From Candidatus Zixiibacteriota bacterium (GTDB lineage Bacteria > Zixibacteria > MSB-5A5 > GN15 > FEB-12), in assembly GCA_040756055.1 (NCBI GenBank), contig JBFLZR010000003.1:293260-357259 (forward strand): a DNA stretch of 64,000 nt, read 5' to 3'. Made by a program: the position numbers and the translations under genes. The notes beneath the pieces are model-generated. The model had not been told where the DNA came from and did no database searches. It was given only the letters and a program-made list of their open reading frames with translations. This document shows, in pieces, positions 11,944-33,552 of this stretch (its first letter is position 1; every line of letters begins with the position of its first letter).

Positions 11944-12121
11944 CCTGCGTCTTTACCTTAGACTTAGCGCGGGCGCTTGAGCTGCCGGAGGAATTCGGCT
12001 GTGATAGTTGTGGTGTGTGATAGCACTTCGAGGCAAGTCAGCACCCTTTATCTGAGAATCCGATTCCAGCGCACGGGTTTTTCTTTTGCTTTGGCCGGGT
12101 ATCCTTTATATTCTGCGGATT

Positions 12122-13342
12122 ATGCTTGGCAAAGCGATAGCATTTATCAGACAATTCGATAAGAGTCTGTGGATTCTTTCTGCCGGGTGGTTCGTGAGCG
12201 CCGCCGGGTTTGCGATCTCCATTCCTTTCATAGCCATCTACTTTCATGCCGAGTTGGGTATGTCTATGTCCGAAATTGGGGTGTTTTTCGGGGCGATGGC
12301 GGTGGTTCGTTCTGTATTTCAAGCTGTCGGAGGAGAGGTTTCCGATCGCATGGAACGGAACACCCTGATGGTGTACTCGCAGATATTCAGGGCGGTGGCC
12401 TTTGCCGTTCTCGCAATATCAATCTACCAGGACTGGGGATTTTGGCCGATTGCTTCGTCGCTGGGAGTCAACGCCATATTTGGCGCCGTATTTCAACCGG
12501 TGGCGAATGCCGTGGTTTCGGATATCGTTCCGGCAGATAAACGTCTCGATGGCTACGCCATTACTCGATCCGCCGGCAATCTCGGCTGGGCGGTCGGACC
12601 GGCGCTTGGAGGTTTTTTCGCGGGATATTCCTACGGCATACTATTCGTCATGTCCTCAGCAGCTACCCTAATCTCCGGGCTCGTTTTCTTGTTCTTCATG
12701 AAGCCGGTGCCAACCGTTCGGGTCCAGGAGCGGTTCAAGTTCTCGGATCTGATGGCAATAAAGAAGGACCCCTACCTTGCCCGGCATTCTCTTTTGATAT
12801 TCGCTTTGTATCTTGTCGTGGCACAGCTTATGGCGCCGTTTTCGGTCTACACGGTGGAGATGGTCAAGATAAGTGAACATCAACTGGGTTTATTGTATAC
12901 TCTCAACGGTCTGATTGTCGTACTGTTTCAGATACCGGTTACTCGATTATTGGCGAAATACAAGCTTACCAGCCAACTTGCGGCGGGAGCGTTCCTTTAT
13001 GCCGTAGGTTACGGTATGGTCGGACTGCTCGTCGGATTTGAATATTTCGTGGTGGCTATCGTTATCGTGACCATAGGTGAAATAGTCATGTCGCCGCCAT
13101 CGCTCACCTTGACCTCAAATCTGGCCCCGGAGGGGAGGATGGGGAGGTACATGGGGATTTTCGGGTTCTTTGTCGCCTCCGGGTGGTCATTTGGCCCCCT
13201 TTACGGAGGTGTGATTCTCGACCAGTTCGGAGCTAACGCCGCCATAGCTTGGGCCCTGATTGCATCGCTGGCCATACTCGCCGGTTTCGGTTATATGCTT
13301 TTCACGCGGTCACTGCCGGACCGTTTCAATATCAGGGATTAG
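12122..13342 (+). CDS. Major facilitator superfamily transporter
   Basis: This 406-residue membrane protein has about twelve hydrophobic helices. Between helices 2 and 3 it has the MFS loop GGEVSDRMERNTLMVYSQ, a variant of motif A. After helix 4 comes RLDGYAITRSAGNLGWAVGPALGG, typical of drug/sugar efflux MFS proteins. I choose ATG 12122 (MLGKAIAFIRQFDKS), because the 12 upstream codons to TTG 12086 look like non-coding sequence. It ends seven bases before the convergent stop of the first array gene, with no terminator between them. The substrate is unknown. Confidence 0.88.
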   Translation: MLGKAIAFIRQFDKSLWILSAGWFVSAAGFAISIPFIAIYFHAELGMSMSEIGVFFGAMAVVRSVFQAVGGEVSDRMERNTLMVYSQIFRAVAFAVLAISIYQDWGFWPIASSLGVNAIFGAVFQPVANAVVSDIVPADKRLDGYAITRSAGNLGWAVGPALGGFFAGYSYGILFVMSSAATLISGLVFLFFMKPVPTVRVQERFKFSDLMAIKKDPYLARHSLLIFALYLVVAQLMAPFSVYTVEMVKISEHQLGLLYTLNGLIVVLFQIPVTRLLAKYKLTSQLAAGAFLYAVGYGMVGLLVGFEYFVVAIVIVTIGEIVMSPPSLTLTSNLAPEGRMGRYMGIFGFFVASGWSFGPLYGGVILDQFGANAAIAWALIASLAILAGFGYMLFTRSLPDRFNIRD

Positions 13343-13349
13343 AACAACC

Positions 13350-15920
13350 CTACTTGATGATAACGAACTTTCCTATCTGAGTACCCTTCTCAGACTCCAC
13401 CACCCAGTAATACAGGCCGGTTACCGCTGCCTGAGTGTTGCGAGTGATCAGATTCCATGTATCGTGCATGGCCTCCGGACCACCATCGGGATAATTGTGG
13501 TCGAGTTCGCGCACAAGGTCACCGTCGAGAGAGTAGATATATATCTTGCAGACGGGCGGAAGGTTCCCGAAGTGAATCCGCTTCATCCGGCTGGAGGCTT
13601 CGTTGCTGTACCGGTTTTCGTAACCTTCGTCGTCGTACCCAGCGTCTGCTCGATAAGGGTTGGGGTATACGTATATCTTTCGATTCTGTTGATCAGCCTG
13701 CTCGGCTGAGGTCAGAGGGTATACCTCTATAGCTCCGTTGAGAAGGGAACTCTCCATTGGACCGAGACCGACCTCCGGGGAGCCGAAGTCGAATGCGGTC
13801 ACGTTAATGAAGTATGGTACCGTAGGAAGAAGATTATCTACCGTCACTTCATACTCAAAGTACTTGAGGTAGCCGTCTTCGGTAACTTCATCGGGCCTTG
13901 CCAACTCGGGCGCCAATGATGTTGGATAGGGTTGGTCGGGGTATCTTTTGATAATCGGAGTTGATATTCCCAATTCCGAGCAGTTATAGTCTTGTGTGAT
14001 GAAGTAGAAGAGTGAGTCGGGGCAGAGGGGATGCTTATAAGGATGCGCGCTTGTATAAGCGAGCGGATTGAAGTTGTCGTCGCCGATCAGGTCACCGTAG
14101 AGAAGTTGAAGATCTTCGAGGAGGAACGGCGTATCCTTCACTTCCCATCGGTCACCGACCAGATTGTACACAAACTTTGTATAATCCTCCAGGTCGTACG
14201 ACCCCACCAGGCTGTAACTGGTGGCTCTGCTGTCGCGGGCACAGTACACGCGATAACCTTCGAAATCAATCCTTCCGGTGAATTGATCTCCCGTCGTTTC
14301 CGAGAGAAGGCCGTTGAATCGCACTGTCACGGAGTTCAATTGCGGCTCCAGGCGCACAATCGGTGCTGGAGGCGGAGAGGCACCTCTAAAATCGGGAACC
14401 CCGTCGCCTTCGTAAAAAGTCGTCCGACAGTTCACATACGCCAGACCCGTGTCGGTAACGATAGTATCCAGGCAGCAAGTGCGAGACTTTCCGAAATAGC
14501 CGTCTCCATCGGTGTCGATGCCCGGGTTGTCGTAGATCCAGGAGGCCCACCGTGTGTTTTTGACGAGGTTGGAGAAGTTGAGAGACTTGTAGTATGCGGC
14601 GGGATTGTTGGGGTTCCAGGACGTCTCAAAGTCGGAGGGATTGACGTGGAAGCTGTCTCCGGCGACCAGGGCGAACGTTATAGGTAATGACTCACCCGGA
14701 TAAATATCAAACGGTCCGAAAGAGAGAAGAAATCTATTATCAAAGCCGTCCGCGAAGTTGTCTGAAAATTCCGGTGGTGGCAGCCACCCCTGCGAGCTAT
14801 AGTCGATGTTGGCGTACAGCATATCATAGTCGAACTCAGGATGTCTCATTACGTAGTACTTGTTTCGATCCCCTAGCGGAGTTCCGAGTCTATCGCCGAA
14901 ATCCCTGAAAGGGTCGATCTCCTTTTCAGACCGTCGTGGTCCCCAGTCACGGGATGGATCTTCGTAATTGGTGATCCACCAATTGAATGAATAGTCTGGG
15001 TAGTCAGATGGTGTCTTTACGATTTTGACCCCAGCGGCTGCTCGAGGGGAAGTCTCGATCCACTTGCCGTCGGCGGGGTCGCCGTCGTTATCAGCGAAAT
15101 ACGCAATGTTGATGGTATCGATAAACCCGCATCCCTCAGGAGCCGGGTGAAATCGGTAAAAACCGACTATATCGTCCCACCATCCTCCGTCAGTGAGTAT
15201 GTGCAAAATGTCGCAGTCCATCCAAATGGCCATGTACACTTGTTGGAGTGTTTTGTCCCCGACATTTTTCACTTTGTAGTCAAATAGAATGAAATCATCG
15301 GCGTAATCGTAACTCCAGGCCATCGAACGGTGGACCACTTCGACGTTGAGGGGTTTATGAGTGGAATTGTCGTAGAAGTCAATTCCGACTAGTGTCGGAT
15401 CGTCCCTCGTATCGTCGTACTCACAGATTATATCCTCCTCTGACTTCGCATCTATCGAGTAGTAGCTACTGCTAACATCTATCGTTTTATATTCGAACCC
15501 GGCGGTCTGTCGTGTGTGAACAACCCATTCTTCAGTTGGCCAAAACTCGTTTCTGGAATAGAAGTCGTCACTGGCGACCGATACGGCCGTGTCCCGACCA
15601 ATCACCGCGCCAATCCATAAAGAAGCAGAAAACATGTATATCAGGTCGCTATACTTTGGATAAACGCATCCCAGGAACCACTGGCCGGTGATGGGATCCA
15701 AAATGTCTCCCCCTAAAGTGCTGATGGTCCCGTTGTTGGCGACTACCAGTTGCAGGTTGCCGATGTCGTGCACAGCGTACTGGACATAGAGGCCAGAAGC
15801 CGTGAGCGACGTCGTCGATTTGGTAGCAGTGAGAAACTGTTTGTTGATAACATCGCGGCCCGCTCCGGAAGACACGAGGAAGCAAAGGACAAACAGTGCC
15901 GTCTGACAAAGTTGTTTCAT
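13350..15920 (-). CDS. Large secreted array protein 1 (T9SS-like C-terminal tail), subfamily A
   Basis: This 856-residue secreted protein is the last gene of a five-member tandem family. It has a signal peptide at 1-21, an N-terminal VVANNGT motif near residue 62 and a LWIGAVIGRDT segment near 101. The conserved block MAWSYDYADDFILFDYKVKN follows near 205-225. A Ca-binding-like DTDGDGYFGK sequence with an adjacent Cys pair (RTCC) lies near 478, then GDGVPDFRGASPPP and a fibronectin-III-like DFEGYRVY region. The tail (about 750-856) begins YVYPNPYR and ends GLYYWVVES...GKFVIIK, like T9SS type A sorting domains. AGGAGG precedes ATG 15920 by 11 bases. It lies 33 bp after array gene 2, so both probably share a transcript. 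I do not recognise a function. Confidence 0.8.
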   Translation of the reverse strand: MKQLCQTALFVLCFLVSSGAGRDVINKQFLTATKSTTSLTASGLYVQYAVHDIGNLQLVVANNGTISTLGGDILDPITGQWFLGCVYPKYSDLIYMFSASLWIGAVIGRDTAVSVASDDFYSRNEFWPTEEWVVHTRQTAGFEYKTIDVSSSYYSIDAKSEEDIICEYDDTRDDPTLVGIDFYDNSTHKPLNVEVVHRSMAWSYDYADDFILFDYKVKNVGDKTLQQVYMAIWMDCDILHILTDGGWWDDIVGFYRFHPAPEGCGFIDTINIAYFADNDGDPADGKWIETSPRAAAGVKIVKTPSDYPDYSFNWWITNYEDPSRDWGPRRSEKEIDPFRDFGDRLGTPLGDRNKYYVMRHPEFDYDMLYANIDYSSQGWLPPPEFSDNFADGFDNRFLLSFGPFDIYPGESLPITFALVAGDSFHVNPSDFETSWNPNNPAAYYKSLNFSNLVKNTRWASWIYDNPGIDTDGDGYFGKSRTCCLDTIVTDTGLAYVNCRTTFYEGDGVPDFRGASPPPAPIVRLEPQLNSVTVRFNGLLSETTGDQFTGRIDFEGYRVYCARDSRATSYSLVGSYDLEDYTKFVYNLVGDRWEVKDTPFLLEDLQLLYGDLIGDDNFNPLAYTSAHPYKHPLCPDSLFYFITQDYNCSELGISTPIIKRYPDQPYPTSLAPELARPDEVTEDGYLKYFEYEVTVDNLLPTVPYFINVTAFDFGSPEVGLGPMESSLLNGAIEVYPLTSAEQADQQNRKIYVYPNPYRADAGYDDEGYENRYSNEASSRMKRIHFGNLPPVCKIYIYSLDGDLVRELDHNYPDGGPEAMHDTWNLITRNTQAAVTGLYYWVVESEKGTQIGKFVIIK

Positions 15921-15953
15921 AATGGAAGTACCCTCCTAATAATGTGCTGCTGA

Positions 15954-18524
15954 TTACTTGATGATAACGAACTTCCCCATCTGCGTCCCCTGTTCGGACT
16001 CCACCACCCAGTAATACAGGCCGGTTACCGCTGCCTGAGTGTTGCGAGTGATGAGGTCCCAGGTATCGTGCATAGCCTCAGGTCCCCCTTCGGGATAGTT
16101 GTGGCCAATCTCGCGAACGAGATCACCGTCGAGAGAGTAGATATATATCTTGCAGACGGGCGGAAGGTTCGCAAAGTGCAATCGGCGCATGCGATCTTCA
16201 GATAGAATTCCGTGTCGGTTTTCGTAGCCCAGCCCGTCGTAATCAGCATCGATCCGATAAGGGTTGGGGTAGACATAAACCTTGAGGTCGTTTTCTTCAA
16301 CTTCCTCCACCGACGTTAGGGGGTAGGCTACCTGAGCGCCATTGAGGACAGATGTTTCCAGCGCCGAAAGACCTATTTCCGGCGATCCGAAGTCAAAAGC
16401 GGTGACGTTAATATAGTACGGCACGGTCGGGAGGAGATCCTCGATAATAAATTCGTACTCGAAATATTTGAGGTAGCCGTCTTCGGTCAATTCTTCCGGC
16501 TGAGCGTCGTCAGCATTGAGCGTTGAAGGATAGGGCTGGTCAGGGTAGATGCGGCGTATCGGTGTGGTGACGCCGAACTCCGCGCGATTGAAATCCTGGG
16601 TGACGAAATAAAACACCGAATCGCGGTAGTAAGGGTGAAAATACGGGTTAACGGCGGAGTATGACGTGGGGTTGAAATTTTCTATTCCAGCCGGGTCACC
16701 ATAGAGCGCTTGAAGCTCGCTTCTGGTAAACGGTAGATCTGACACAGACCACGCCAATCTGGCGTGGTCGTAAACGTATTTGCTGAAATTTTCCCTATCG
16801 TACGAGGCGATTATACTGTAGCTCTGTAACCGGTCGTCGCGGCCTATATAAACGCGATAACCTTCGAAATCAACCAGGCCTGAGAATCTATCGGCTTCGG
16901 TCTCCGACCTCAAACCGTTAAATCGGATCCGGAGCGATCCGAGTTGCGGTTCGACCCAGAATTCCGGGGCGGGCGGAGGAGAGGCTCCTCGGAAGTCAGG
17001 GACCCCGTCACCTTCGTACCAGGTGGTATCACAAATTCCGAAAACGAGACCGGTGTCGGTGACTGTTGTATCCGAGCAGCAAACATGGTGCTTGCCGCTG
17101 TCGCCATCGCCATCGGTATCGACTCCCGGATTATCGTATATCCAGGATGCCCACCGGGAATTGGTCGCCAGCGAGGAGAAATCGAGCTTGTTGTAGAATA
17201 TGGATGGGTGGTAGGGATCAAAGGAATCGAAATCATTCGGGTTAACGTGAAAATTCTCGCCTCCGACCCAGGCCAGCGATATGGGCAGTTTCTCACCGGG
17301 GTCAATAGTAAACGGCCCGAATGACATGATATAGCGAACATCAAATCCTTTAGCATAGGTTTCGGCATATTCGGGCGGCGGCAAGAATCCCTCGGCAGTG
17401 TGGTCGACGGCAGTGTACATCAAATCGTAATCGAACTCTTTGTGTCTCATCACATAGTATTTGTTGTGATCGCCCGCCGGCGTGCCCATGCGTACCCCGA
17501 AATCACGGAACGGATCTTCCGGTGTACCTCTCAGCCTGGGACCGAAATCTCTGGTGACATCGGTCCAGTTCATTATCCACCAGTTGAAGGAATAGTTCAA
17601 TGAATCTGAAGGGGTGCGAACCACGCGTACCCCGACGACAGAAAGGGGAGACTTTTCGGTCCAACGACCATCGACCGGTTCACCATCGTTGTCGGCGTGG
17701 TAGGCTATATTAATGGTATCGATAAACCCGCAGCCGTCTGCGGAGGGGTGTGTCCTGTAGAATCCGACAATGTCGTCGGTCCAGTACTCTATATCCTGTA
17801 AGGACTGGTGAAAGACGCAGCCATCCAACCATATCCCCATATAGACATCCTCAAGCGTTTCGTTGCCGATATTTTCCACCTTGTAGTCGAAGAGTATGAA
17901 ATCATCGGCGTAATCATAGCTCCAGGCCATAGATCGCTGGGTGGCTTTGATATTCAGGGGCACGTGAGGGGTGGGATCATCACAGTAATCCGAATTGACC
18001 AGCGCGGGATTGGTCGAGGTATCCGTGTAGTAACAAATGATATCCTCTTCCGAATACGCGTCTTCGCTGTAGTTCGGACTGGTGGGGTCGATTGTCTCGA
18101 ATTTCATCTCACCGAACGGGGGGATGTCGGGCCACATCTCGTACGAACAATACAAATCTTCCGCGCCGGTAGATACAATAGTGTCCCTCCCGACCACCGC
18201 CCCCACCCACAGGGCGCAAACCCATAGGTAGATGAGATCACTGTTTTTGGGATATATACACGCCTGGACATAGCTGCCGGTAATGGGATCCAGAACAGGT
18301 TCGCCTTCGGAACCGAACGTGCCGTTGTTTCGGACGACCAGTTGCATACGCCCCCGTGTGTGCACCGCTCGTTCTATCACACGACGGTCAGAGGCCGCGA
18401 GGGTGGTCAAACGGTCGGCTGTCGATGTTCTGTCCAGCTTGGGATTTCGTGCGTCGGCAGAATAGTTGAAGATGCAGGTGACGCAGGTCACCAGGAGAAT
18501 GGCGGTTCGGAAGCCTTTTTTCAA
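15954..18524 (-). CDS. Large secreted array protein 2 (T9SS-like C-terminal tail), subfamily A
   Basis: This 856-residue paralogue has exactly the same length as array protein 1 and aligns along its whole length. It has a signal peptide (1-25, ending YSADA), VVRNNGTFGSEG, LWVGAVVGRDT, MAWSYDYADDFILFDYKVEN, DTDGDGDSGK with a Cys pair (HVCC), GDGVPDFRGASPPP, DFEGYRVYIGRDDR and YVYPNPYR. The tail ends GLYYWVVESEQGTQMGKFVIIK. Its 3' end matches that of gene 1 at nucleotide level over about 50 bases around the GLYYW codons (near 16005-16055), far more than the N-terminal half does. The gap to gene 3 is 25 bp, so it is probably co-transcribed with it. It is a surface protein of unknown function. 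Confidence 0.8.
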   Translation of the reverse strand: MKKGFRTAILLVTCVTCIFNYSADARNPKLDRTSTADRLTTLAASDRRVIERAVHTRGRMQLVVRNNGTFGSEGEPVLDPITGSYVQACIYPKNSDLIYLWVCALWVGAVVGRDTIVSTGAEDLYCSYEMWPDIPPFGEMKFETIDPTSPNYSEDAYSEEDIICYYTDTSTNPALVNSDYCDDPTPHVPLNIKATQRSMAWSYDYADDFILFDYKVENIGNETLEDVYMGIWLDGCVFHQSLQDIEYWTDDIVGFYRTHPSADGCGFIDTINIAYHADNDGEPVDGRWTEKSPLSVVGVRVVRTPSDSLNYSFNWWIMNWTDVTRDFGPRLRGTPEDPFRDFGVRMGTPAGDHNKYYVMRHKEFDYDLMYTAVDHTAEGFLPPPEYAETYAKGFDVRYIMSFGPFTIDPGEKLPISLAWVGGENFHVNPNDFDSFDPYHPSIFYNKLDFSSLATNSRWASWIYDNPGVDTDGDGDSGKHHVCCSDTTVTDTGLVFGICDTTWYEGDGVPDFRGASPPPAPEFWVEPQLGSLRIRFNGLRSETEADRFSGLVDFEGYRVYIGRDDRLQSYSIIASYDRENFSKYVYDHARLAWSVSDLPFTRSELQALYGDPAGIENFNPTSYSAVNPYFHPYYRDSVFYFVTQDFNRAEFGVTTPIRRIYPDQPYPSTLNADDAQPEELTEDGYLKYFEYEFIIEDLLPTVPYYINVTAFDFGSPEIGLSALETSVLNGAQVAYPLTSVEEVEENDLKVYVYPNPYRIDADYDGLGYENRHGILSEDRMRRLHFANLPPVCKIYIYSLDGDLVREIGHNYPEGGPEAMHDTWDLITRNTQAAVTGLYYWVVESEQGTQMGKFVIIK

Positions 18525-18549
18525 GAAAGACCCCTACGTTTGTAAGATG

Positions 18550-21141
18550 CTAGCGTATTATGACGAATTTACCCATCTGGGTGCCGTGCTCGGACTCCAC
18601 AACCCAGTAGTACAGGCCGCTTACCGCCGCCTGTGTGTTACGGGTGATCAGATTCCATGTGTCGTGCATCGCCTCCGGGCCACCATCGGGATAGTTGTGA
18701 TCCAACTCGCGAACAAGGTCGCCATCGAGCGAATAGATATATATCTTACAGACCCTGGGCAGATTGGCGAAATGAAGGCGTCTCATGCGTGAGGCGGCCT
18801 CGGTACCGTCACGATTCTCAAACCCATCACCGTCATAGTTCTGGTCCGCCCGATACGGATTGGGGTAGACATAAACTTTGAGGTTTTGCTCCTCCACTTC
18901 ATCTACGGCCGTAAGCGGATAGGCGGTCTGGGCGCCGATAGTGATTGAGCTTTCCATGGCCCCCAATCCCACTTCGGGCGAGCCGAAGTCGAATGCCGTA
19001 ATGTTCACGTAGTACGGTATCGTGGGCAGGAGATTGTCAATCTCCATTTCGTATTCGAAATACTTGAGGTACCCGTCTTCCGTGAGTTCGTCCTCTTCGG
19101 CGAGTTCCGGGTACAGCGATGACGGATAAGGCTGGTCCGGGTAAATCTTGCGGATCGGCGTGGTTACGCCGAATTCGGACTGGTTGAAATCCTGTCTCAC
19201 GAAGAAGAATAGCGAGTCGGGCGAATACGGATGCTGGTATGGCGATACGCGGGTATAGGCGAGAGGGTCGAATTCAGGCTGTCCGATCGGATCGCCGTAT
19301 AACTGCTGCAGTTGCTCAAGGCTGAATGGCGTGTCAAACACTTCCCAGGCATCGTAGGTGGCGTTGTAGACGAACTTGGTGAAGTCTTCTCGATCGTATG
19401 ATGCGACGAGGCTGTAGCTGGTTGCCCGTTCATCGCGTCCTATATACACGCGATAGCCCTCGAAGTCGAGATCACCGGTGAAGTGGTCTCCGGTAATTTC
19501 AGACAGCCGGCCGTTAAACCTTACTTTGATGGAACCGACAGAAGGATGCAGCCAGAACTCCGGAGGCGGCGGCGGAGAAGCGCCGCGAAAGTCCGGCACA
19601 CCGTCGCCCTCATAGAATGTCGTGTCACAGCCCTGGTAGACTATGCCGGTGTCCGTCATTACAGTATCGGTGCAGCAGGTTCTGTATTTGCCACGATAAC
19701 CGTTACCGTCGGTGTCAACGCCGGGGTTGTCATATATCCACGATGCCCATCGAGCGTTCTCAACAACCGAGGAGAAATCCAGTTTGTTGTAATAACGCGT
19801 CGGTTGATACGGATCCCAGTTGTCGTCGAAATCCGTGGGCCCGACATGAAAATCCTCTCCTCCGACCCAGGCGAATGTTATCGGAAGCACCTCTCCCGGT
19901 TCGATATCGAAGGGGCCAAAGGACAGAAGGTTGCGCACATCGAAACCGTCGGCATAGTTATCAGCACCTTCCGGGGGAGACAACCAGCCTTCCTGCGTAT
20001 GATCAACGGCTGTGAACAGCAGATCGTAGTCAAACTCCTGGTGTCTCAGGATGTAGTACTTATTCTTGTCACCCCGTGGACTTCCCAAGCTGTAGTCGAA
20101 ATCGCGAAAGGGGTCTTCTTCTGTACCCGCCCTTCTGGGCCCCCAGTCTCTGGAACCGTCACTGAAATTCCAGACCCACCAATTGTAGGAATAGCTCAGA
20201 GAGTCCGATGGTGTTCTTACCACCTTGACACCCAGAATCGGTCGCACTGACATGGCGTCCCACGCGCCGGAAGTCGGGTCTCCATCATTATCTGCGTGAT
20301 AGGCGATGTTAATCGTATCAGTGTAGGGGCATACCTCATCAACATCCCAGGTGTGCTTAAAACCGACAATGTCATCGGTCCAGTGATTGGCATCCTTGTT
20401 CAATACGTGCCAGACATCTCCGTCGATCCATATCCCCATATACACGTCTGTTAATCTCTCGGTGCCGATATTTTCCACCTTGTAGTCGAAGAGTATGAAG
20501 TCATCGGCATAGTCGTAACTCCAGGCCATCGAGCGCTGGGTGACTTCAATGCCGAGGGGGCGGTGCGGTAGATTGTCAAACGGGTCGACGCCGACGATGG
20601 ATACATCCGTGCGCGTGTCGTCATACATACAGATTATATCCTGTTCGGAATATGCGTCATCGGAATAATAGGCGTTGCTTGGATCAATAGTGAGATATTG
20701 GAAACCACCTTTATGTTCGTACTGGCCGCGCCACGATTCAGTGGGCCAGAATTCTTTTGTGTTGTACCAGTCTTCATTGCCGCACGATACCGCCGTGTCG
20801 CGTCCCACAACAGCGCCTACCCAGAGAGCCGCCACCCACAAATACACCAAATCGCTGTATTTCGGGTAAACACAGGATGTTATCTGCTCGCCGGTGAAGG
20901 GGTCCTCTTTGGCGGTTCCTTCGGTTCCGAAAGTCCCATTGTTGCCGATTATCAGCTGCATGTTGCCGCGGCTGTGGGCGGAGTACTGAATTACCGGATT
21001 CTCGTACGACGAAAGAGGTATGGTTCTCGTCGTAGGCACTTTGGATACCACGTCGCGGCCGAAAATGCTGGATGTCGCTAAGGCAAAGACCGCCAACAAG
21101 ACGAGCTGTTGGCGGGTCTTTACCGCAAAAAATCTGTACAT
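18550..21141 (-). CDS. Large secreted array protein 3 (T9SS-like C-terminal tail), subfamily A
   Basis: This is the third subfamily A paralogue. The open frame extends to 21231, but I place the start at ATG 21141 (MYRFFAVKTRQQLVLLAVFALATSS, a good signal peptide), giving 863 residues and a 10-bp gap to gene 4. The longer form would overlap gene 4 by 80 bp and put a charged 30-residue stretch before the signal. The block order is that of genes 1 and 2: IGNNGTFGTEG, LWVGAVVGRDT, MAWSYDYADDFILFDYKVEN, DTDGNGYRGK with RTCC, GDGVPDFRGASPPPPP, DFEGYRVYIGRDER, YVYPNPYR, then GLYYWVVES and GKFVIIR. No clear ribosome site is seen, so translation may be coupled to gene 4. Function unknown. Confidence 0.8.
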   Translation of the reverse strand: MYRFFAVKTRQQLVLLAVFALATSSIFGRDVVSKVPTTRTIPLSSYENPVIQYSAHSRGNMQLIIGNNGTFGTEGTAKEDPFTGEQITSCVYPKYSDLVYLWVAALWVGAVVGRDTAVSCGNEDWYNTKEFWPTESWRGQYEHKGGFQYLTIDPSNAYYSDDAYSEQDIICMYDDTRTDVSIVGVDPFDNLPHRPLGIEVTQRSMAWSYDYADDFILFDYKVENIGTERLTDVYMGIWIDGDVWHVLNKDANHWTDDIVGFKHTWDVDEVCPYTDTINIAYHADNDGDPTSGAWDAMSVRPILGVKVVRTPSDSLSYSYNWWVWNFSDGSRDWGPRRAGTEEDPFRDFDYSLGSPRGDKNKYYILRHQEFDYDLLFTAVDHTQEGWLSPPEGADNYADGFDVRNLLSFGPFDIEPGEVLPITFAWVGGEDFHVGPTDFDDNWDPYQPTRYYNKLDFSSVVENARWASWIYDNPGVDTDGNGYRGKYRTCCTDTVMTDTGIVYQGCDTTFYEGDGVPDFRGASPPPPPEFWLHPSVGSIKVRFNGRLSEITGDHFTGDLDFEGYRVYIGRDERATSYSLVASYDREDFTKFVYNATYDAWEVFDTPFSLEQLQQLYGDPIGQPEFDPLAYTRVSPYQHPYSPDSLFFFVRQDFNQSEFGVTTPIRKIYPDQPYPSSLYPELAEEDELTEDGYLKYFEYEMEIDNLLPTIPYYVNITAFDFGSPEVGLGAMESSITIGAQTAYPLTAVDEVEEQNLKVYVYPNPYRADQNYDGDGFENRDGTEAASRMRRLHFANLPRVCKIYIYSLDGDLVRELDHNYPDGGPEAMHDTWNLITRNTQAAVSGLYYWVVESEHGTQMGKFVIIR

Positions 21142-21151
21142 AAAGATGTAG

Positions 21152-23725
21152 TTACATAATGATGACAAGTTTCCCGACCTGAGCCTCGCCGTCTTCACTC
21201 TCGACGACCCAATAATACAGGCCCGAGGCAACCATCTGGGTATTGCGGGTTATCATATTCCAGATTTCATGGGAGGCCTCCGGATCGTCCGGACTCTTGT
21301 CATGCTCCAGTTGACGCACTAAATCTCCGTCGAGCGTATATATGCTGATGGTGCACTTGGGCGGCAGATTGGCAAAATGAATCTCTCGAACGCGATCATC
21401 GGGACGGTCGGCATCCATTCTACCTTCATACCCCTGCTCGCGGTAATCAGCATCCCCTCGATACGGATTGGGGTATACATAGGCTTTCAGCCCTCTGGCG
21501 GCGACCTCGCTCGATGAGGCCAGCGGATAAGCGGCCTGCGCACCGGCAGATTTGGCTGATTCGAGAGCCTGAAGCCCGGATTCCGGTGAGCCAAAGTCGA
21601 AGGCGGTAACATTTACCCACCACTCGATGGTTGGCTGCAGGCTGTCGATGGTCAATTCGTATTCGAAATATTTCAGCAAGCTTTCTTCGGTAAGCTCGTC
21701 CGGGTCGGCCAGCGACGGGTCGAGATTTGATGGATAGGGCTGGTCGGGATATACTTTCTCGATTCTCGTGCTCACTCCAAGTTCGGATACATTGTAATCC
21801 TGCGGGGTGAAGTAGAACATGGAGTCCGGAAATCCCGGCATTCTGTAGGGTTGCGCGATGGAGTAAGAGAGAGGCGTGAAATCATCACCGTAGAGTATCC
21901 GTAGCGAGTCAATTGTAAACGGTATGTCTCTGAGCTCATACCCGGCCTCAGGCAGTTTGTTGGGGTTGTAGACCAATTTATTGTAGTCCTCAATGTCATA
22001 GGATGCTACAACTCCAAAACTGCTCTCACGTTGGTCCAGGCCCACATAAACGCGGTATCCCTCGAAATCTACAATCCTCGAGAAAACATCGGTTGTTGTC
22101 TCAGTCTTGGTTCCGTTGAAACGAACCCGGATTGACCCGACGGAGGACTCAAGCCAGAAATCCGGCGGGGGCGGGGGGGAAGCGCCCTGGAAGTCAGGCT
22201 TGCCATCGCCTTTGTACCAGAAAGTTTCACACTGAGTCTGGGCTTCATCAAAGCAGCAGGTTCGTACCGCTCCGGAGTCGCCATCGCCATCGGTGTCCAG
22301 CCCGGGGTTATCATAAACTCTGGAAGCCCAAGTCGAGTTGAGCGCCAGGTCGGCGAAGTTCAGGTTGTCGTAGTACGTGTCTGGGTTATAACTTCCCGAT
22401 TCCAGAAAAGCTCCATTTGTGGGAAGCTGATGGAAGTTTTCACCGGCCACATAAGCGAATGATATCGGCAGTTTCTCCCCCGGTTCGATATCGAACGGTC
22501 CGAAGGACAACAGATACCGGGTATCAAAACCGTTGGATACGTTGGCAACGTCGATTCCAGAAGGAAAGGACCAGATTGGATCAGTAGGCTGGACTGCTGC
22601 CACCCGGATCTGGTCAAAGTCGAACTCGCGGTTTCGCAACAGATAGTATTTGTTCCGATCGCCCTCAGGTGTTCCGAGGCCGCCGGTACCGAAATCTCTG
22701 AAATCCTCTTCCCATGCTCCCACTCCTTCGCGTTCGCGTGGACCGTAGTCAAACTGGGCGGCGCCGTTGGAAATCCACCAGTTGAAGGAGACTTCCGGAT
22801 AATCTCCGGGGGTACGGACAATTCTCATGGCGGTGACATGAGGGCATGACTCATCGGTAAACGCACCGCCGACCGGGTCTCCGTCGTTATCCACGATATA
22901 GGCCAGGTTTACGGTGTCTTCGAACTGACAGACATCTTCGTATGTGGAGACAAAAGTCTCTCGGAAACCGCAGATATCGTCAGTGTGGTAATCCTGTACG
23001 CCTGTCCAGCCGACATCGCTATCGTTGTAGAAGCCCATGTAGGCGGCCTTGATGGTGGAGTTACCGATGTTTTTCACTTCGTAGTCAAACAGTACAAAAT
23101 CCTCGGCGTAGGAGTAAGACCAGGCATACGACCGTTGGGTAACTTCAATGTTCAATGGTGTGTGAAGTTCACCGCCCCATGTGTTCTGCCCTACGAACGG
23201 AAAGGTGTCGGAGTACCTGGCTATGTAGTCTTCTTCGGAAATAGCGCCGTTGTACAGATCGGGGCTTTCAGGTTCGCGAAGGGTGCGATAGATCATGTCG
23301 CCCAGGCCGAAGACATCGGGCCGGAATTCCTCGCAACAACCAGTTGTCCAGCCATCGGCGCCGGTTGATACCAGCGTATCGCGCCCTATGACCGCGCCGA
23401 TCCAGAATGATGCTGCGAACAGGTATTCAACGTTTGAATTTTTCGGGTACTCGCACGAACGCACCACATCACCCGTGATACAGTCTTCCGTGCCGCCGAC
23501 CGCCCAGCCGGTTCCCAGGGTGCCGTTGTTGTTCACACCCAGCGCTATTTTGCCAACATCCTGCGAGACAATACAATAAGCAGGCTGGTCGATTGCGGAG
23601 AGGCTGTTATAAAGATCCTTGGCGGTGTTCTTGTCATAAGCCGCTCGACTGAATACAGCCTGAGTGAATAGAAGGCTAATCGCAAGAAACAGAAAAATAG
23701 TTTTAAAGATGTTCCTAGTCATCAT
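21152..23725 (-). CDS. Large secreted array protein 4 (T9SS-like C-terminal tail), subfamily B
   Basis: This 857-residue paralogue belongs to a second subfamily with gene 5. It has a signal peptide (MMTRNIFKTIFLFLAISLLF..., cleavage near 26), VNNNGTLGTGWAVGG, FWIGAVIGRDT and YAWSYSYAEDFVLFDYEVKN (YAED replaces the YADD of subfamily A). DTDGDGDSGAVRTCC, YKGDGKPDFQGASPPPPP and DFEGYRVYVGLDQR follow. The tail contains YVYPNPYR and ends NTQMVASGLYYWVVES...GKLVIIM, where subfamily A has NTQAA and a K/R end. It is the first gene of a close-packed four-gene group (genes 4 to 1 in transcription order) and lies 484 bp downstream of gene 5. Function unknown. Confidence 0.8.
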   Translation of the reverse strand: MMTRNIFKTIFLFLAISLLFTQAVFSRAAYDKNTAKDLYNSLSAIDQPAYCIVSQDVGKIALGVNNNGTLGTGWAVGGTEDCITGDVVRSCEYPKNSNVEYLFAASFWIGAVIGRDTLVSTGADGWTTGCCEEFRPDVFGLGDMIYRTLREPESPDLYNGAISEEDYIARYSDTFPFVGQNTWGGELHTPLNIEVTQRSYAWSYSYAEDFVLFDYEVKNIGNSTIKAAYMGFYNDSDVGWTGVQDYHTDDICGFRETFVSTYEDVCQFEDTVNLAYIVDNDGDPVGGAFTDESCPHVTAMRIVRTPGDYPEVSFNWWISNGAAQFDYGPREREGVGAWEEDFRDFGTGGLGTPEGDRNKYYLLRNREFDFDQIRVAAVQPTDPIWSFPSGIDVANVSNGFDTRYLLSFGPFDIEPGEKLPISFAYVAGENFHQLPTNGAFLESGSYNPDTYYDNLNFADLALNSTWASRVYDNPGLDTDGDGDSGAVRTCCFDEAQTQCETFWYKGDGKPDFQGASPPPPPDFWLESSVGSIRVRFNGTKTETTTDVFSRIVDFEGYRVYVGLDQRESSFGVVASYDIEDYNKLVYNPNKLPEAGYELRDIPFTIDSLRILYGDDFTPLSYSIAQPYRMPGFPDSMFYFTPQDYNVSELGVSTRIEKVYPDQPYPSNLDPSLADPDELTEESLLKYFEYELTIDSLQPTIEWWVNVTAFDFGSPESGLQALESAKSAGAQAAYPLASSSEVAARGLKAYVYPNPYRGDADYREQGYEGRMDADRPDDRVREIHFANLPPKCTISIYTLDGDLVRQLEHDKSPDDPEASHEIWNMITRNTQMVASGLYYWVVESEDGEAQVGKLVIIM

Positions 23726-24209
23726 GACCCTTACACTCTGGTTTGAAAGTTATAAAACTGATATTCATCCTCTTGTATGGTTCAAGGGAACCAGACTAAA
23801 CTTGCAGCGAATATTAAGCGGTAAAAGTACGAAATTGTAGCAGCGTAGGCAAGCTATTTTGCTGAAAAAATTAGCCACGATTCCTCTCTTGAGCTAAGTT
23901 CCCCGGAGCCCTTATCTGCCTGATTTCAGAACGCTTACGCTTTTTCCGAGTCTACGTGCTGCTTAGTCTCAGGCAAAGACATCCATGCGATTTACGTCGC
24001 ATTCTCCGAGTACCACCGTACTGACGAACTTATCGTGAAAAATGATTAGTTGAATCTCACAAAAAAGAGTGTGAAATAACAACATACAGAGCTTAGCCTG
24101 CGCAAATGCTACGCCCTAAACAGGATATAATTTGGTGGTGTTGGCTGACGATTGAAAGAAAGTCCCTGACGCCAGCGGTACAAACCGGCCGACCGCTGTA
24201 TCCTGTTGA
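23726..24209. other. 484-bp intergenic region inside the array
   Basis: No credible gene is seen. It separates array genes 4 and 5 and probably carries the promoter of the four-gene group on the minus strand, though no convincing -35/-10 pair stands out. Two small inverted repeats are visible: ATGCGA/TCGCAT near 23985-24002, and CAGCGGT/ACCGCTG at 24172-24198. The second is just after the gene 5 stop and could be a weak terminator without a U-tract. Confidence 0.5.
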
Positions 24210-26798
24210 TTACATTATGATTACGAGCTTGCCGACCTGAGTCTCGCGGCCGGGTGACTCCACTGTCCAGTAATAGAGTCCCGAGGCGACCATTTGCGTG
24301 TTGCGGGTAATAAGGTTCCAGGTCTCATGAGATGCGGTGGGGTCGTAAGGATTGACATCATGCTCCAGCTCTCGGACAAGGTCGCCATCAAGGGAATAAA
24401 TCTTTATCGTGCACCTTGCAGGTAAGTTCGCAAAGTGTATAGCTCGCACCCGGTCGTCAGGCCGGTCCGTCTGCGTGCGGCCTTCGAATCCGAGGTCTCG
24501 GTAGTCCGCATCGCTGCGATAGGGATTGGGGTATACATATACCTTCAGGTTTTTTTGCTCGGCTTCCAAGGCTGTGACGTCGGGATAAGCCACCTGAGCG
24601 CCGATGGTCACGGAGCTTTCCAGCGATTCCAATTCGGCCTCCGGCGAACCGAAGTCGAACGCGGTGACATTGACATAGTACGGAACGGTTGGAAGGAGAT
24701 TCTCAATGAATACTTCGTATTCGAAATATTTCAGGTAGCCATCAGCGGTTACCTCATCCGCACGAGCTGAGTCGGGGTTCAGGCTCGAGGGATAGGGCTG
24801 ATCCGGGTAAATCTTGCGAATCGGTGATGATTCACCGAAGACCGCGCAATTGAAGTCCTGAGCTTCAAAGATGAACAATGAATCGGGAAACAGCGGATGA
24901 CGGTACGGATTCACACGGGTGTAAGATGTCGGCTCGAAGGTACTGTCGTCGCAGGAGAGAGCGTAAAGGCAGCGCAGCGAATCCAAGGAGAACGGTATGT
25001 CGAACAACTCATAAGTTTCGCCGGTCCAAACCAGTTTATTATAGTCCTGTCGATCATAGGAACCGATCAGGCTGTAACTGGTCTGCCTGTCATCGCGGGA
25101 GATATAGACGCGATATCCCTCGAAGTCACAGACGCCCGAGAAGACGTCTTTGGATGTTTCCGAGCGCTGTCCGTTTATTCGCACGCGTATGGCGCCGGTG
25201 GTAGGTTCCAGCCAGAAGAGCGGTGGCGGCGGGGGCGAGGCGCCGCGAAAGTCAGGTACGCCGTCGCCCTCATACCAGATCATCTCGCATACATTAGGGT
25301 CCCATTCTTGCGTGGTGAGTGTATCCAGTATGTCTTCGAGACTTATTGCCACTGAATCGGAGCAGCACAGGCGCACTTTGCCGGCGTAGCCATCGCCATC
25401 GGTGTCGATTCCAGGGTTGTCATAAATGCGTCCGGCCCAGGCGGCGTTAAGGCCGAGGTCGGAAAAGCCGATGTTGTCGTAATACCGATCCGGGCTGAGA
25501 GGAAGGTTGTCGATGTTTGCCGGGTCGGTGTGGAAATTCTCTCCGGCAATATAGGCGAATGAGATCGGCAGGCGCTCGCCCGGCTCAATATCGAATGGCC
25601 CAAAGGATAGAAGGTACCTGGTATCGAAACCATCGGCGACATTGTAGGCCAGTGACTGAACCGGATAGAGCCATAGTGGGTCCGTAGCGCCGATAGTGGC
25701 GGTGTGGACCTGGTCGTAGTCGAATTCCATGTTGCGCATTATATAATATTTATTGCGATCACCTTCGGGAGTGCCCAACCCCCCGGTGCCAAAATCGCGA
25801 AATTCTTCCGGCCAGCGGCCGACTTCGCTTCGCTCCCTCGGACCGAAATCCAACGGAGCGGAGGTGTTGCTTACCCACCAGTTAAACGAGACATCGAGGC
25901 TGTCGGCAGGTGTGCGTATAATGCGCGTTCCGGTGACATTGGGAACGGACTCTTCTCCGAAGACACCGCCGACGGGGTCGCCGTCGTTATCCGCTATCCA
26001 GGCTATGTTTACCGTGTCCCAGAAAAGGCAGCCACCATAGTAACGCGGTGAGGCTTCAATAAAGCCACAGATATCGTCCGCATAGCCCCCTCCCGTAGAA
26101 CTCTGGCCGAAATAAACATCGGCATCGACATATATTCCCATATAGACATTGCGGAGTTGCGACTCGCCAATGTTGCGGACCGTATAGTCGAAAAGAACGA
26201 AATCCTCAGCGTACGAATACGACCAGGCATAAGAACGCTGGCTGACTTCTATGTTCAAAGGGATGTGTGTCCGACCGTCCAGATCGTTACCGGTGCCGGC
26301 CACGACCGTATCGGTGTACATCATGATATAGTCTTCCTCCGACACGGCGCCTTGTCTCTGGCTGGCATCGAGTGAGCTAATGGATCGCTTGATGATGTCA
26401 CCGAAAGGCGACGGGTCGGGAGAGAACTCGCGAACCCACGACCATCCCGTCGCAGCAGTCGAGACCAAGGTGTCACGACCGACGACAGCTCCGATCCAGA
26501 AGGATCCGGCATACAGATATCTGGTGTTGGAGCCTTTGGGATATTCGCAGTCCAGGAGCTGCTCGCCGGTGATTACGTCGATCGAGGATACCGAGAAGCC
26601 CGTGCCAAACGTGCCGTTGTTGTTGATGGCTAGTACCATTCGTCCGACGTGGTGCCCGACGGCCCCGTAGGCCGGAGTGGACGCCGAAAGGGTGAGGTCG
26701 TTGGCCTTGGCGTGTTCGTCGTACAAGGCCCTGCCCGAAACCGAGCCGGTGAATATCAGAAGTGTCAAGGCTAGCGTGCAGGATCGTCTGGCTGTCAT
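24210..26798 (-). CDS. Large secreted array protein 5 (T9SS-like C-terminal tail), subfamily B
   Basis: This 862-residue protein is the first array gene in transcription order and the closest relative of gene 4. It has a signal peptide (MTARRSCTLALTLLIFTGSVSG), INNNGTFGTGFSVSS, FWIGAVVGRDT, YAWSYSYAEDFVLFDYTVRN, DTDGDGYAGK with a Cys pair (LCC), GDGVPDFRGASPPPPP, DFEGYRVYISRDDR and YVYPNPYR. The tail ends GLYYWTVES...QVGKLVIIM. Between the Cys pair and the next conserved Cys it carries about 15 extra residues (around ISLEDILDTLTTQEW) not found in the others. GGGGGG precedes ATG 26798. It is set apart from the four-gene group by 484 bp and may have its own promoter. Function unknown. Confidence 0.8.
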   Translation of the reverse strand: MTARRSCTLALTLLIFTGSVSGRALYDEHAKANDLTLSASTPAYGAVGHHVGRMVLAINNNGTFGTGFSVSSIDVITGEQLLDCEYPKGSNTRYLYAGSFWIGAVVGRDTLVSTAATGWSWVREFSPDPSPFGDIIKRSISSLDASQRQGAVSEEDYIMMYTDTVVAGTGNDLDGRTHIPLNIEVSQRSYAWSYSYAEDFVLFDYTVRNIGESQLRNVYMGIYVDADVYFGQSSTGGGYADDICGFIEASPRYYGGCLFWDTVNIAWIADNDGDPVGGVFGEESVPNVTGTRIIRTPADSLDVSFNWWVSNTSAPLDFGPRERSEVGRWPEEFRDFGTGGLGTPEGDRNKYYIMRNMEFDYDQVHTATIGATDPLWLYPVQSLAYNVADGFDTRYLLSFGPFDIEPGERLPISFAYIAGENFHTDPANIDNLPLSPDRYYDNIGFSDLGLNAAWAGRIYDNPGIDTDGDGYAGKVRLCCSDSVAISLEDILDTLTTQEWDPNVCEMIWYEGDGVPDFRGASPPPPPLFWLEPTTGAIRVRINGQRSETSKDVFSGVCDFEGYRVYISRDDRQTSYSLIGSYDRQDYNKLVWTGETYELFDIPFSLDSLRCLYALSCDDSTFEPTSYTRVNPYRHPLFPDSLFIFEAQDFNCAVFGESSPIRKIYPDQPYPSSLNPDSARADEVTADGYLKYFEYEVFIENLLPTVPYYVNVTAFDFGSPEAELESLESSVTIGAQVAYPDVTALEAEQKNLKVYVYPNPYRSDADYRDLGFEGRTQTDRPDDRVRAIHFANLPARCTIKIYSLDGDLVRELEHDVNPYDPTASHETWNLITRNTQMVASGLYYWTVESPGRETQVGKLVIIM

Positions 26799-27185
26799 TG
26801 CTCATCCCCCCGAGTCGAGTTGTTTTTCCAAGAGACGTTCATGGATGTGCAGGTGTTTTATAGTTTCTTCGCCTACTATTTTTTGAAAACGTCAAATATA
26901 GCTGGCAGGGCAGTCCGGTGCAATGGTTTTCTGCTTTGGGCTGCCTTGCGGATTGTTGAAAGTTAAGCCGGCCGTATGATTGTCAATTCTGTCATTGTGG
27001 TGGTCCGCCTCTGAGGGCGTGCTGATAAAGTCCTCGTGCCTGGTTGCGGCAGGTCCTGTAAATCCGCTTAGCAGATGTATGTGATCTGACGCTTGTGCAG
27101 CTCTTGGACTAAGGTGTCAGGTCATAATTTCTGCAAGCAGAAATTATGACCTGACACGACAGCGGAGAGGCGTTTCAACGGGCAC
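26799..27185. other. 387-bp intergenic region with a long perfect palindrome
   Basis: This lies between the start of array gene 5 and the stop of the S8 protease gene. I see no gene. Its main content is the 44-bp inverted repeat at 27114-27157. The remainder should include the upstream region of array gene 5, but no clear promoter could be picked. Confidence 0.55.
27114..27157. repeat. Perfect 21-bp inverted repeat with 2-base centre (REP/MITE-like)
   Basis: The left arm 27114-27134 begins GTGTCAGGTC and ends TTTCTGC. The right arm 27137-27157 is its exact reverse complement, with AA between. There is no U-tract on either side, so it is a poor intrinsic terminator, although it lies just past the S8 protease stop. 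The outer GTGTCAGGTC motif resembles ends I recall from REP-like hairpins mobilised by IS200-type (RAYT) transposases. That link is from memory and unverified. Confidence 0.8.
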
Positions 27186-29564
27186 CTAAGGGCAGACTTC
27201 CGGGGCCGGTCCCGCCTTCCATATGTAATTGACCAGATATGTAAGATCGAGCGGATCAATTTCCCCGTCGCCGTTGTTATCACATTCCTCGGGACACGGA
27301 ACGTCCGGGCCGCCCTTCCACATCCAGTTTACGAAATACGTCACGTCCAGCGGATCCAGAACACCGTTGTGGTCGATGTCGCCGCGTAGCTGGCAGCACG
27401 TCAATACGACCGATATTTCGCCGCTTTCGGTGGGTACCGTATAGTCCAGAATATCGGACTGATACTCCGGCAGATAGGCTTCATAGCCACCGAGTCGCAC
27501 TGTGGCCGTTTGGCCTTCCACGGCGGCCGCGGGGATGGTCCAGTACAATTTCAGGATGTCTCCCGTACCCGGGGCCAGATCCGGGGATGTCCCTACGTTG
27601 GAGGCAATGAGCCTGAGCGTGAAACGCTTGCCGAACCATACGTCATAGTGCAGATAATCCTGCTGTTCAAAATATTCCGTGCGACAACCGACAGTGGAGA
27701 AGGAGTCGAAAGTAACGGCCAGATCTCCGGGGAACTCCACCGGAATCTTGAAGTAATGAACGGGTACGGTGTTGTTGGCGGTGATGACGATCTCCACCTG
27801 CTCACCGGGCGCCGCGCCGTCTGTGCCTGCTTTCATGGTGTCGGCCAGGACGATCATATAATCCAGCTTGGTCATGGTGTGCGGCTCGCCGCCCGACATG
27901 ACCTCGAGCGTGACATCAAAAATGCCAGCGGTGTTATAGGTGTGGGCTGGATTTTGTACTGCGGCGGTGCCACCATCGCCGAAGTTCCATGACCAACTAT
28001 CAACCGCAAGTCCCGAGGAGCCGAAAAAGTCGACACCAAGGGGAGCCCAGCCGCTGGTCACGCTGGAGGTAAAAGACACGCCGAAGACCGCATCACTTGA
28101 TCCCCTTAGATCCGGAAGCGGTCCGATGTTTTTAGAACTTAAAGCCTGCGGGGTGGAGTACGATGTCAGGAGGGCACGCATTCCGTTGTGATCGAGAGTC
28201 GTTGTGTGAGCCGCCTTGTTTATTCCCTGCAGCACGGCGCATGCGCCCACGATTATGGGCGACGCGCTGGAGGTGCCGGCGAACTCGGCGGTATAGTAGT
28301 CATCCGGTGTGGTTCCGTACAGGTCACCGTAGCCGAGGGTGAATACGTTCCAGGTTCCGAACGCGTGTACATCGAGACGTATTCCATAGTTCGTGAAAGA
28401 CGCCGGCACGTGGTTTTCATCGGAGGCGGCTACCATAATGGCGCCGGAAAACCGATAGTCGGGATAAAAAAGGCTGTCGTAGATTGAAGTGTCGTCATAG
28501 TTTTCCGCTCCGTTTCCTCCGGCTTCGACAACTATCCGGCCGAGAGCGGACGCGGTCAGGATGGCGTCGAAATTCTCCTGCCAGTATTCCATTGCAACAT
28601 ACCCGCGCTGGTCGGAACGAACCTGGAAATCATAGTGTGGCCCGGGGGCGTGCAGCTCGATGAGAATAATGTCGCCTTCCACACAATTGGCCGTAGCTGT
28701 GGTTATCGCGTTGGCTGTGGTCATTGAGCCAATGGAAACAGTGCCGAGGTCAACATTGTAGGCTATGCCGGTCATGCCAAAATCGTTTGAGTCGGAGGCG
28801 ATTTCTCCCAGAACGGCCGTGCCGTGGTTCCACCATCCTGGGTCATCTATTAAGGCACCCGCGATATGAAAGTCATCCGTTCCGCCGTGCAAATCCTCAT
28901 GCGTCTGAATCCAGTTTCCCTCGATGTCGATGACTTTGACATTCTCGCCATGACCGCCGGGAAGTCCCCACCCATAGTAGGCATCGATACCGGTAGGAGC
29001 CGCCTGCAGATAATACTGTCCCGATTCCCAGGCCGGAGTCAAAGACGATGTTACCTCTATGCTGGCGACCTCCGGTCTGGGTGCAAAATAGGCTACTTCA
29101 ACAATGTCCAAGCCGCGAATCTGTTTAAGCAATGCCAGGCGTTCCTGAGGCGATGCCGATGCCGGGATATCAATTTCATAATACAGCGTCAGGTCAGGAA
29201 GGCTGATTCCGGCCCGGCGAGAACCTTCTTGGCGCATCCTGTCAAGAGCAGACTTGTCCATCTGGAAGCGTGGCGACACGCCGGCAGCGCGGTCGGATGA
29301 GGCCAGTAACGCGTTCAAGCTGTTCCAAGCCGTGCCGGTTCGGTCGAAGCGTCCTTGGTTTAAGACCGGCTGGCCAAGTCCCTCTCGGATTTTGAAAACG
29401 ATTTTGTCGCTTTCCGCGTCGAAAACATCGGACTGATCCGTCGGCAGAGCGACAACGCGTCTTTTGAGCGAATTGTCCTTTGCGTGAAGGCTTGCGGCAG
29501 TCAAAAATAGAGCAAACAACAATAACAGTGAGGTACTCAGTCGGTGAAATTGCTGTGGCTTCAT
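27186..29564 (-). CDS. Secreted subtilisin-like S8 protease with PKD, cohesin-like and dockerin-like modules
   Basis: This 792-residue secreted protease has a signal peptide at 1-28 and a propeptide-like region to about 175. In its subtilisin domain Asp213 (VIDIEGNW), His247 (NHGTAVLGE), oxyanion Asn351 (GGNGAEN) and Ser432 (FAGTSSASP) form the catalytic set. A PKD domain follows (about 495-575, WNFGDGG). Residues about 577-712 form a beta-rich module resembling a cohesin domain (PGEQVEIVITANN ... VHYFKIPVEFPGDL). The C-terminal 70 residues are a dockerin-like pair of Ca-binding repeats (GDIDHNGVLDPLDVTYFVN and NGDGEIDPLDLTYLVN) with a preceding Cys-Cys. AAAGG precedes ATG 29564. It should be active outside the cell or on its surface. 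The cohesin reading is tentative. Confidence 0.88.
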   Translation of the reverse strand: MKPQQFHRLSTSLLLLFALFLTAASLHAKDNSLKRRVVALPTDQSDVFDAESDKIVFKIREGLGQPVLNQGRFDRTGTAWNSLNALLASSDRAAGVSPRFQMDKSALDRMRQEGSRRAGISLPDLTLYYEIDIPASASPQERLALLKQIRGLDIVEVAYFAPRPEVASIEVTSSLTPAWESGQYYLQAAPTGIDAYYGWGLPGGHGENVKVIDIEGNWIQTHEDLHGGTDDFHIAGALIDDPGWWNHGTAVLGEIASDSNDFGMTGIAYNVDLGTVSIGSMTTANAITTATANCVEGDIILIELHAPGPHYDFQVRSDQRGYVAMEYWQENFDAILTASALGRIVVEAGGNGAENYDDTSIYDSLFYPDYRFSGAIMVAASDENHVPASFTNYGIRLDVHAFGTWNVFTLGYGDLYGTTPDDYYTAEFAGTSSASPIIVGACAVLQGINKAAHTTTLDHNGMRALLTSYSTPQALSSKNIGPLPDLRGSSDAVFGVSFTSSVTSGWAPLGVDFFGSSGLAVDSWSWNFGDGGTAAVQNPAHTYNTAGIFDVTLEVMSGGEPHTMTKLDYMIVLADTMKAGTDGAAPGEQVEIVITANNTVPVHYFKIPVEFPGDLAVTFDSFSTVGCRTEYFEQQDYLHYDVWFGKRFTLRLIASNVGTSPDLAPGTGDILKLYWTIPAAAVEGQTATVRLGGYEAYLPEYQSDILDYTVPTESGEISVVLTCCQLRGDIDHNGVLDPLDVTYFVNWMWKGGPDVPCPEECDNNGDGEIDPLDLTYLVNYIWKAGPAPEVCP

Positions 29565-33505: not shown

Positions 33506-33552
33506 CAATTCCTCCTATATCATCGAGCGATTTACAGGTAATTTACCAACGA

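Follow-up and report, generated by a model that had tools for sequence, protein, structure and literature searches.

A tandem array of five paralogous genes for predicted surface proteins in a Zixibacteria genome: candidate cargo of the T9SS

What purpose is served by five adjacent genes that encode large, predicted secreted proteins of one and the same architecture? The genes lie in a window of 64,000 nucleotides (the whole stretch of DNA analysed) from a Candidatus Zixiibacteriota bacterium with a genome of 3.3 Mb; most of its relatives are Candidatus Zixiibacteriota MAGs. The first-pass annotation had described five minus-strand paralogues with a probable surface role and an N-terminal region of no named family.

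The array and its relatives

Array and flanks (positions in the window):
12086-13342, plus strand: MFS transporter, a flank kept in four genus genomes; context, not component
13350-15920, minus strand: array gene 1 (P0001), 856 aa, ATG start, RBS-like AGGAGG upstream
15954-18524, minus strand: array gene 2 (P0002), 856 aa, TTG start
18550-21141, minus strand: array gene 3 (P0003), 863 aa counted from the ATG, with the frame open as far as 21231
21152-23725, minus strand: array gene 4 (P0004), 857 aa
23726-24209, no strand: gap between array genes 5 and 4, 484 bp, the sole long gap of the array
24210-26798, minus strand: array gene 5 (P0005), 862 aa
27186-29564, minus strand: flanking S8 protease that carries PKD and a dockerin; in genome G003 the same place is taken by a protein ending in a dockerin; context only
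29841-31982 and 32000-33508, minus strand: M16 peptidase pair, flank; the same pair stands by the array in genomes G001 and G002 (recognised via length, position and sequence); context only

All five open reading frames are intact and free of internal stops, with the lengths and places first described. The paralogues are 49-66% identical and collinear across all motif blocks, and every block that the first-pass annotation had named was found in five of five, in the same order: NNGT, GAVxGRDT, YAxDFxLFDY, DTDGDG or DTDGNG with a Cys pair, GDGxPDFxGASPPP and YPNPY...GLYYW. The gaps within the array are 33, 25, 10 and 484 bp, which bears out the tight, co-directional packing reported for genes 1-4. 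From this spacing, co-expression of genes 1-4 is plausible, with gene 5 set 484 bp off. Scanning for promoters and terminators gave results at or below shuffled-sequence expectation, so that the operon structure is judged from spacing; the sole Rfam match was the tRNA. The third-position GC content (GC3) of the five genes is 0.61-0.65, equal to that of neighbouring housekeeping genes, and a horizontal island was rejected on these grounds.

Two observations concern the flank next to gene 5. At 27114-27157, in the space that separates array gene 5 from the S8 protease gene, lies an inverted repeat of perfect 21-bp arms and a 2-bp loop (GTGTCAGGTCATAATTTCTGC / GCAGAAATTATGACCTGACAC); it is single in the window, and among the loci collected it occurs only in two, both covering the same place. 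The S8 protease (27186-29564) ends in a dockerin-like C-terminal pair, and dockerin-like ends are also present on the flanking protein in G003 (locus L137) and at locus L188.

A profile of the five proteins, a search already proposed at first pass, revealed matches in 132 of 132 Zixibacteria genomes examined, spanning 85 genera and usually with many copies each. Full-length homologues throughout exclude chance, and the presence of several copies in every genome makes it likely that the family is central to how Zixibacteria meet their surroundings. Tandem arrangement is common, a same-strand family neighbour being present in 42 of the 56 relative loci that are 7 kb or longer. Within the genus there is one syntenic array with 4-9 copies per genome; the three other genus genomes carry it in the same place with 9, 5 and 4 copies, flanked by the MFS transporter on one side and the S8-protease or M16-peptidase group on the other. 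The array of five was confirmed as such; the family, however, is larger than this, since about 6 kb outside the window there is a sixth close paralogue (G000:C3:363514-366099) and three genes on another contig of the same genome have the same N-domain with other C-termini.

Tree analysis revealed two old clades, each present in four of four genus genomes, plus recent duplications. For two pairs of recent duplicates, which come from sister genomes, dN/dS was 0.14 and 0.09, indicating purifying selection, and we conclude that the array genes are maintained; in the same pairs, the N-domain tends to have a higher dN than the C-terminal part. The decay that the first-pass annotation had offered as a refutation left no sign, the five genes being intact and free of internal stops.

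Two records were considered as evidence of a wider spread. The Calditrichaeota-labelled relative (L039) was rejected, as its genome groups with Zixibacteria (same contig coordinates), and the Ignavibacterium-labelled record is probably Zixibacteria, having contig coordinates in common with G030. The non-Zixibacteria examples reached amount to one, on a Rhodothermus marinus plasmid.

Protein anatomy and predicted fold

Parts of array gene 1 (positions in the window):
15858-15920, minus strand: signal peptide, approximately residues 1-21, predicted from composition (hydrophobic run at residues 7-17, KD 2.56)
14511-15791, minus strand: N-domain, residues 44-470, beta-supersandwich fold by AlphaFold and Foldseek
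14361-14531, minus strand: Asp-rich loop (DTDGDG) and Cys-bearing beta-hairpin, residues 464-520
13716-14360, minus strand: Fn3-like domain with an insert of about 85 residues, residues 521-735, from AlphaFold strands
13353-13676, minus strand: C-terminal sorting-like tail, residues 749-856

An N-terminal hydrophobic run, recognised by composition only, starts at residues 7-13 in five of five proteins, in keeping with the secretion proposed at first pass; the probable surface role proposed there is also supported. The Asp-rich loop may bind calcium, as judged from its DxDxDG pattern. The Fn3 identity in the array proteins was assigned by position and by a Pfam fn3 match that is confined to C9 homologues. 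The YPNP...GLYYW tail of the first-pass annotation is present as a motif and proved to be more than that, namely a sorting-domain-like region of about 110 residues, which is among the most conserved parts of the protein. Its Cys791 is invariant in 111 of 111 aligned sequences, and the same alignment revealed many invariant Asp, His and Trp residues across the family.

The first approximately 740 residues are covered by no Pfam, NCBIfam or PHROGs model, and a PDB sequence search also gave nothing above threshold, in keeping with the N-terminal region having been left unnamed. CARDB, the commonest sub-threshold match, was treated as noise (best E 0.036, 8 of 111 members). AlphaFold modelling, likewise suggested at first pass, gave a mean pLDDT of 89.4 for the whole protein and, for the N-domain alone, a confident model (pLDDT 94.0, pTM 0.92) with what looks like a beta-supersandwich fold. 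Foldseek matched this model to GH116, GH94, YidC-P1 (the periplasmic domain) and galactose mutarotase at TM-scores of only 0.23-0.45, the best match being GH116 (E 4.5e-9, probability 1.00, TM 0.38). The supersandwich is a fold that all four have in common, in GH116 and GH94 as a domain of the enzyme. The array proteins resemble GH116/GH94/GH65, the YidC periplasmic domain and galactose mutarotase in predicted fold, with a Foldseek probability of 1.00 for most, but differ from them in having neither the helical catalytic barrel nor the membrane insertase part, and in showing no detectable sequence similarity and TM-scores below 0.5. The (alpha/alpha)6 catalytic barrel was absent from the AlphaFold secondary structure. 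We read the modelled N-domain as sharing the fold class of supersandwich proteins, not as a member of an enzyme family.

Foldseek comparison with viral models gave weak matches only, and a viral origin was rejected, as no related viral contigs were found.

Export route and distant homologues

The host genome encodes PorU (673 bits, cut-off 420), SprA (577 bits, cut-off 200) and ten PorV/PorQ proteins above cut-off, and about 38 further places match the sortase model, nearly all in its tail region only. GldM/PorM, the T9SS motor, was not found in the genome, and the control genomes gave no positive control for it either. It is likely, from the sequence, that the array proteins are displayed on the surface by the T9SS, the export route being a prediction. 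The literature covered, which was partial, yielded nothing joining Zixibacteria and the T9SS.

Other T9SS-related genes of this genome have features of their own. Beside PorU, an 868-aa PorV-family protein (L131:9531-12137, on G000:C8) carries the PorV barrel at residues 604-866 and a short PorV-type piece at about residues 25-68, with a weak propeller (Reg_prop) signal in between, as if a domain had been inserted. At L158:1854-9349 (G000:C4), three consecutive secreted proteins have canonical type A-like tails, the third of which (532 aa) weakly matches the array N-domain.

In comparison with T9SS type A cargo (TIGR04183/PF18962, shuttle PorV), the array proteins are alike in the signal peptide, in being large multidomain secreted proteins, in a tail that ends in GxYxW/Y...GK and in a host with PorU, SprA and PorV. 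Unlike in type A cargo, the tails score below the cut-offs, with 14.6 versus 27 for Pfam PF18962 and 13 versus 23 for TIGR04183, and were therefore not classed as type A; they make up a class of their own, marked by an invariant Cys (YPNPYR...NLPxxCxIxIYSLDGDLVR). The type B tail model gave no match in the NCBIfam scan (E up to 1), and the tail of gene 5 matched a PorZ tail with E 1e-5.

Distant homologues of the family were found in a different setting. Two of them in the same genome (907 and 1117 aa) each have a TonB-dependent receptor gene on one side and a PorV/PorQ gene on the other, and the same three-gene order was found on the Rhodothermus marinus plasmid pRMAR01. The plasmid protein, WP_144295523.1, shares collinear pieces of N-domain, Fn3-like part and tail with the array proteins (157 bits total); it differs in being encoded by a lone gene flanked by those for TonB receptor and PorV/PorQ and, at 1132 aa, in having extra domains. 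The array family aligned with the three operon homologues with an hhalign E of 2.9e-45 over 267 columns. When these three were used in a class-wide search, matches were obtained in 45 of 60 near-complete genomes. A TonB receptor was directly upstream in 29 of 30 operon-homologue loci, and PorV/PorQ was directly downstream in 23 of the 24 loci whose sequence continued downstream for 200 bp or more; these locus counts used PorV and TonB models derived from three or four of the sequences analysed here, and the PorV/PorQ identity was confirmed by NCBIfam for three. The operon TonB receptors scored below the SusC cut-off. A description of this operon was not found by title or abstract in the part of the literature covered.

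Two side observations were made at such loci. At L191 (G000:C2:145166-146023), a PorV/PorQ gene directly follows a TonB-receptor-like frame with no family cargo gene in between, and the Rhodothermus homologue (L138:932-4330) has a sub-threshold phage tail-tube match at residues 779-851 (24.5 bits versus a cut-off of 60).

When the tails were compared, the median score of the array tail profile was 59 bits on the operon-homologue tails and 19 bits on canonical type A tails of the same genome, with hhalign E values of 5e-28 for array versus operon homologues and 6e-10 for array versus type A. By these sequence scores, array and operon-homologue tails are one distinct Cys-containing class. Three genes of the same genome combine the same N-domain and fn3 with a canonical type A tail (TIGR04183 34.7 bits versus 23), their N-domain aligning with that of the array proteins with an hhalign E of 9.7e-73. 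As the N-domain thus also comes with a type A tail that exceeds the cut-off, the same position is shared by two kinds of sorting tail. Several other PorV/PorQ genes of the genome also sit after a gene with a sorting-like tail.

At the 106 array-type loci, which total 1.12 Mb and in some cases overlap, no PorV/PorQ gene was found beside the array family, and a weak TonB receptor match was found at 2. The array members therefore look like orphan cargo that relies on a common shuttle. In Flavobacterium johnsoniae, genes for type B cargo commonly have the gene for a PorP/SprF shuttle of their own behind them, and type B orphans use a common shuttle encoded elsewhere; dedicated and shared shuttles have been shown experimentally for this cargo type (PMC12618676). 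The present arrangement is alike in that one form of cargo comes with its own shuttle gene and another is an orphan with no shuttle nearby. It is unlike type B in that the putative shuttle is PorV/PorQ, the type B tail model has no match and the gene order also includes an upstream TonB receptor. By analogy, the operon homologues with their own shuttle and the orphan array proteins look like type B logic applied to another tail class.

Function of the array proteins

We favour, at a probability of roughly one half, the reading that the five genes encode tandemly amplified T9SS cargo, that is, proteins displayed on the surface to bind a ligand; this may be a glycan, which is a guess from the resemblance in fold. 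Surface ligand binding is favoured because the supersandwich comes with no catalytic barrel, because a TonB receptor stands by the distant homologues and because the N-domain changes faster than the tail. The proteins would be exported by Sec, and the Cys-containing tail would then be recognised by the SprA/Sov translocon and one of the ten PorV/PorQ-type shuttles. The shuttle would carry them to the surface, where they would stay shuttle-bound or be attached by PorU, with the supersandwich N-domain facing outwards and the copies possibly serving different ligands or different conditions. We infer here the working of the tail as a T9SS signal, the shuttle used, the surface location, and binding and its target.

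Foremost among the alternatives, and nonetheless unlikely, is that the proteins are structural surface-layer or fibre subunits that self-assemble into a coat, the paralogues being variants and supersandwich and Fn3 the building blocks. Uniform length and order, high copy number, universality in the phylum and a very conserved scaffold in a large all-beta protein that lacks a catalytic barrel would suit such a coat. An identity of 49-66% is, however, more divergent than usual for subunits of one lattice, no S-layer model of Pfam or NCBIfam matched, and the distant homologues, as single genes in TonB-receptor operons, better fit a receptor partner.

That same gene order is the basis of a further reading, which we rank close behind the coat, in which the homologue captures a substrate for the TonB receptor in the manner of SusD with SusC and the array supplies extra capture proteins for receptors elsewhere. 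The receptor upstream in 29 of 30 loci across the class, the operon with PorV/PorQ and the Rhodothermus plasmid speak for it; the array itself, however, has no adjoining TonB receptor, the operon receptors are under the SusC cut-off, and at such distant homology (E 2.9e-45, 267 columns) function may differ. The likeness to SusD-like proteins consists in being a possible surface partner of a TonB receptor, and is seen only in how the genes around the distant homologues are ordered; SusD itself is a lipoprotein of helical structure, whereas the array model is mainly beta, with no SusD Pfam match and no receptor neighbour. The operon homologues point to ligand binding or uptake being at least as likely as adhesion.

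Quite improbable is a secreted carbohydrate-active enzyme (mutarotase-, lyase- or hydrolase-like) in which the supersandwich itself is active. Galactose mutarotase and parts of GH and PL enzymes share the fold, and the invariant Asp, His and Trp residues would be in line with catalysis, but there is no enzyme-family match, TM-scores are low and the model lacks the GH116/GH94 (alpha/alpha)6 barrel. Decaying or silent duplicates with no current function are scarcely credible: the copy number of 4-9 across sister genomes and the stop codon found in a few homologues elsewhere would agree with decay, but the five genes are intact, dN/dS in recent duplicates is 0.09-0.14 and the family is present in every genome.

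Going beyond ligand-binding cargo as such, we tentatively propose, as a possibility of lower standing, an undescribed class of T9SS cargo with a Cys-containing CTD and dedicated PorV/PorQ-family shuttles. Its basic form would comprise a TonB receptor, a supersandwich capture protein and a PorV/PorQ anchor, providing non-SusCD capture in FCB phyla, and Zixibacteria would have amplified the capture protein into orphan arrays. Tail class and operon together suggest that cargo-specific shuttles extend beyond type B cargo with PorP/SprF. TonB receptor, homologue and PorV/PorQ are a concrete and testable group of genes that may form an uptake system with no relation to SusCD; the group includes a homologue on a plasmid of the cultivated Rhodothermus marinus.

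Elsewhere in the window, at 48260-50050, a full-length isocitrate dehydrogenase kinase/phosphatase AceK with both domains is encoded.
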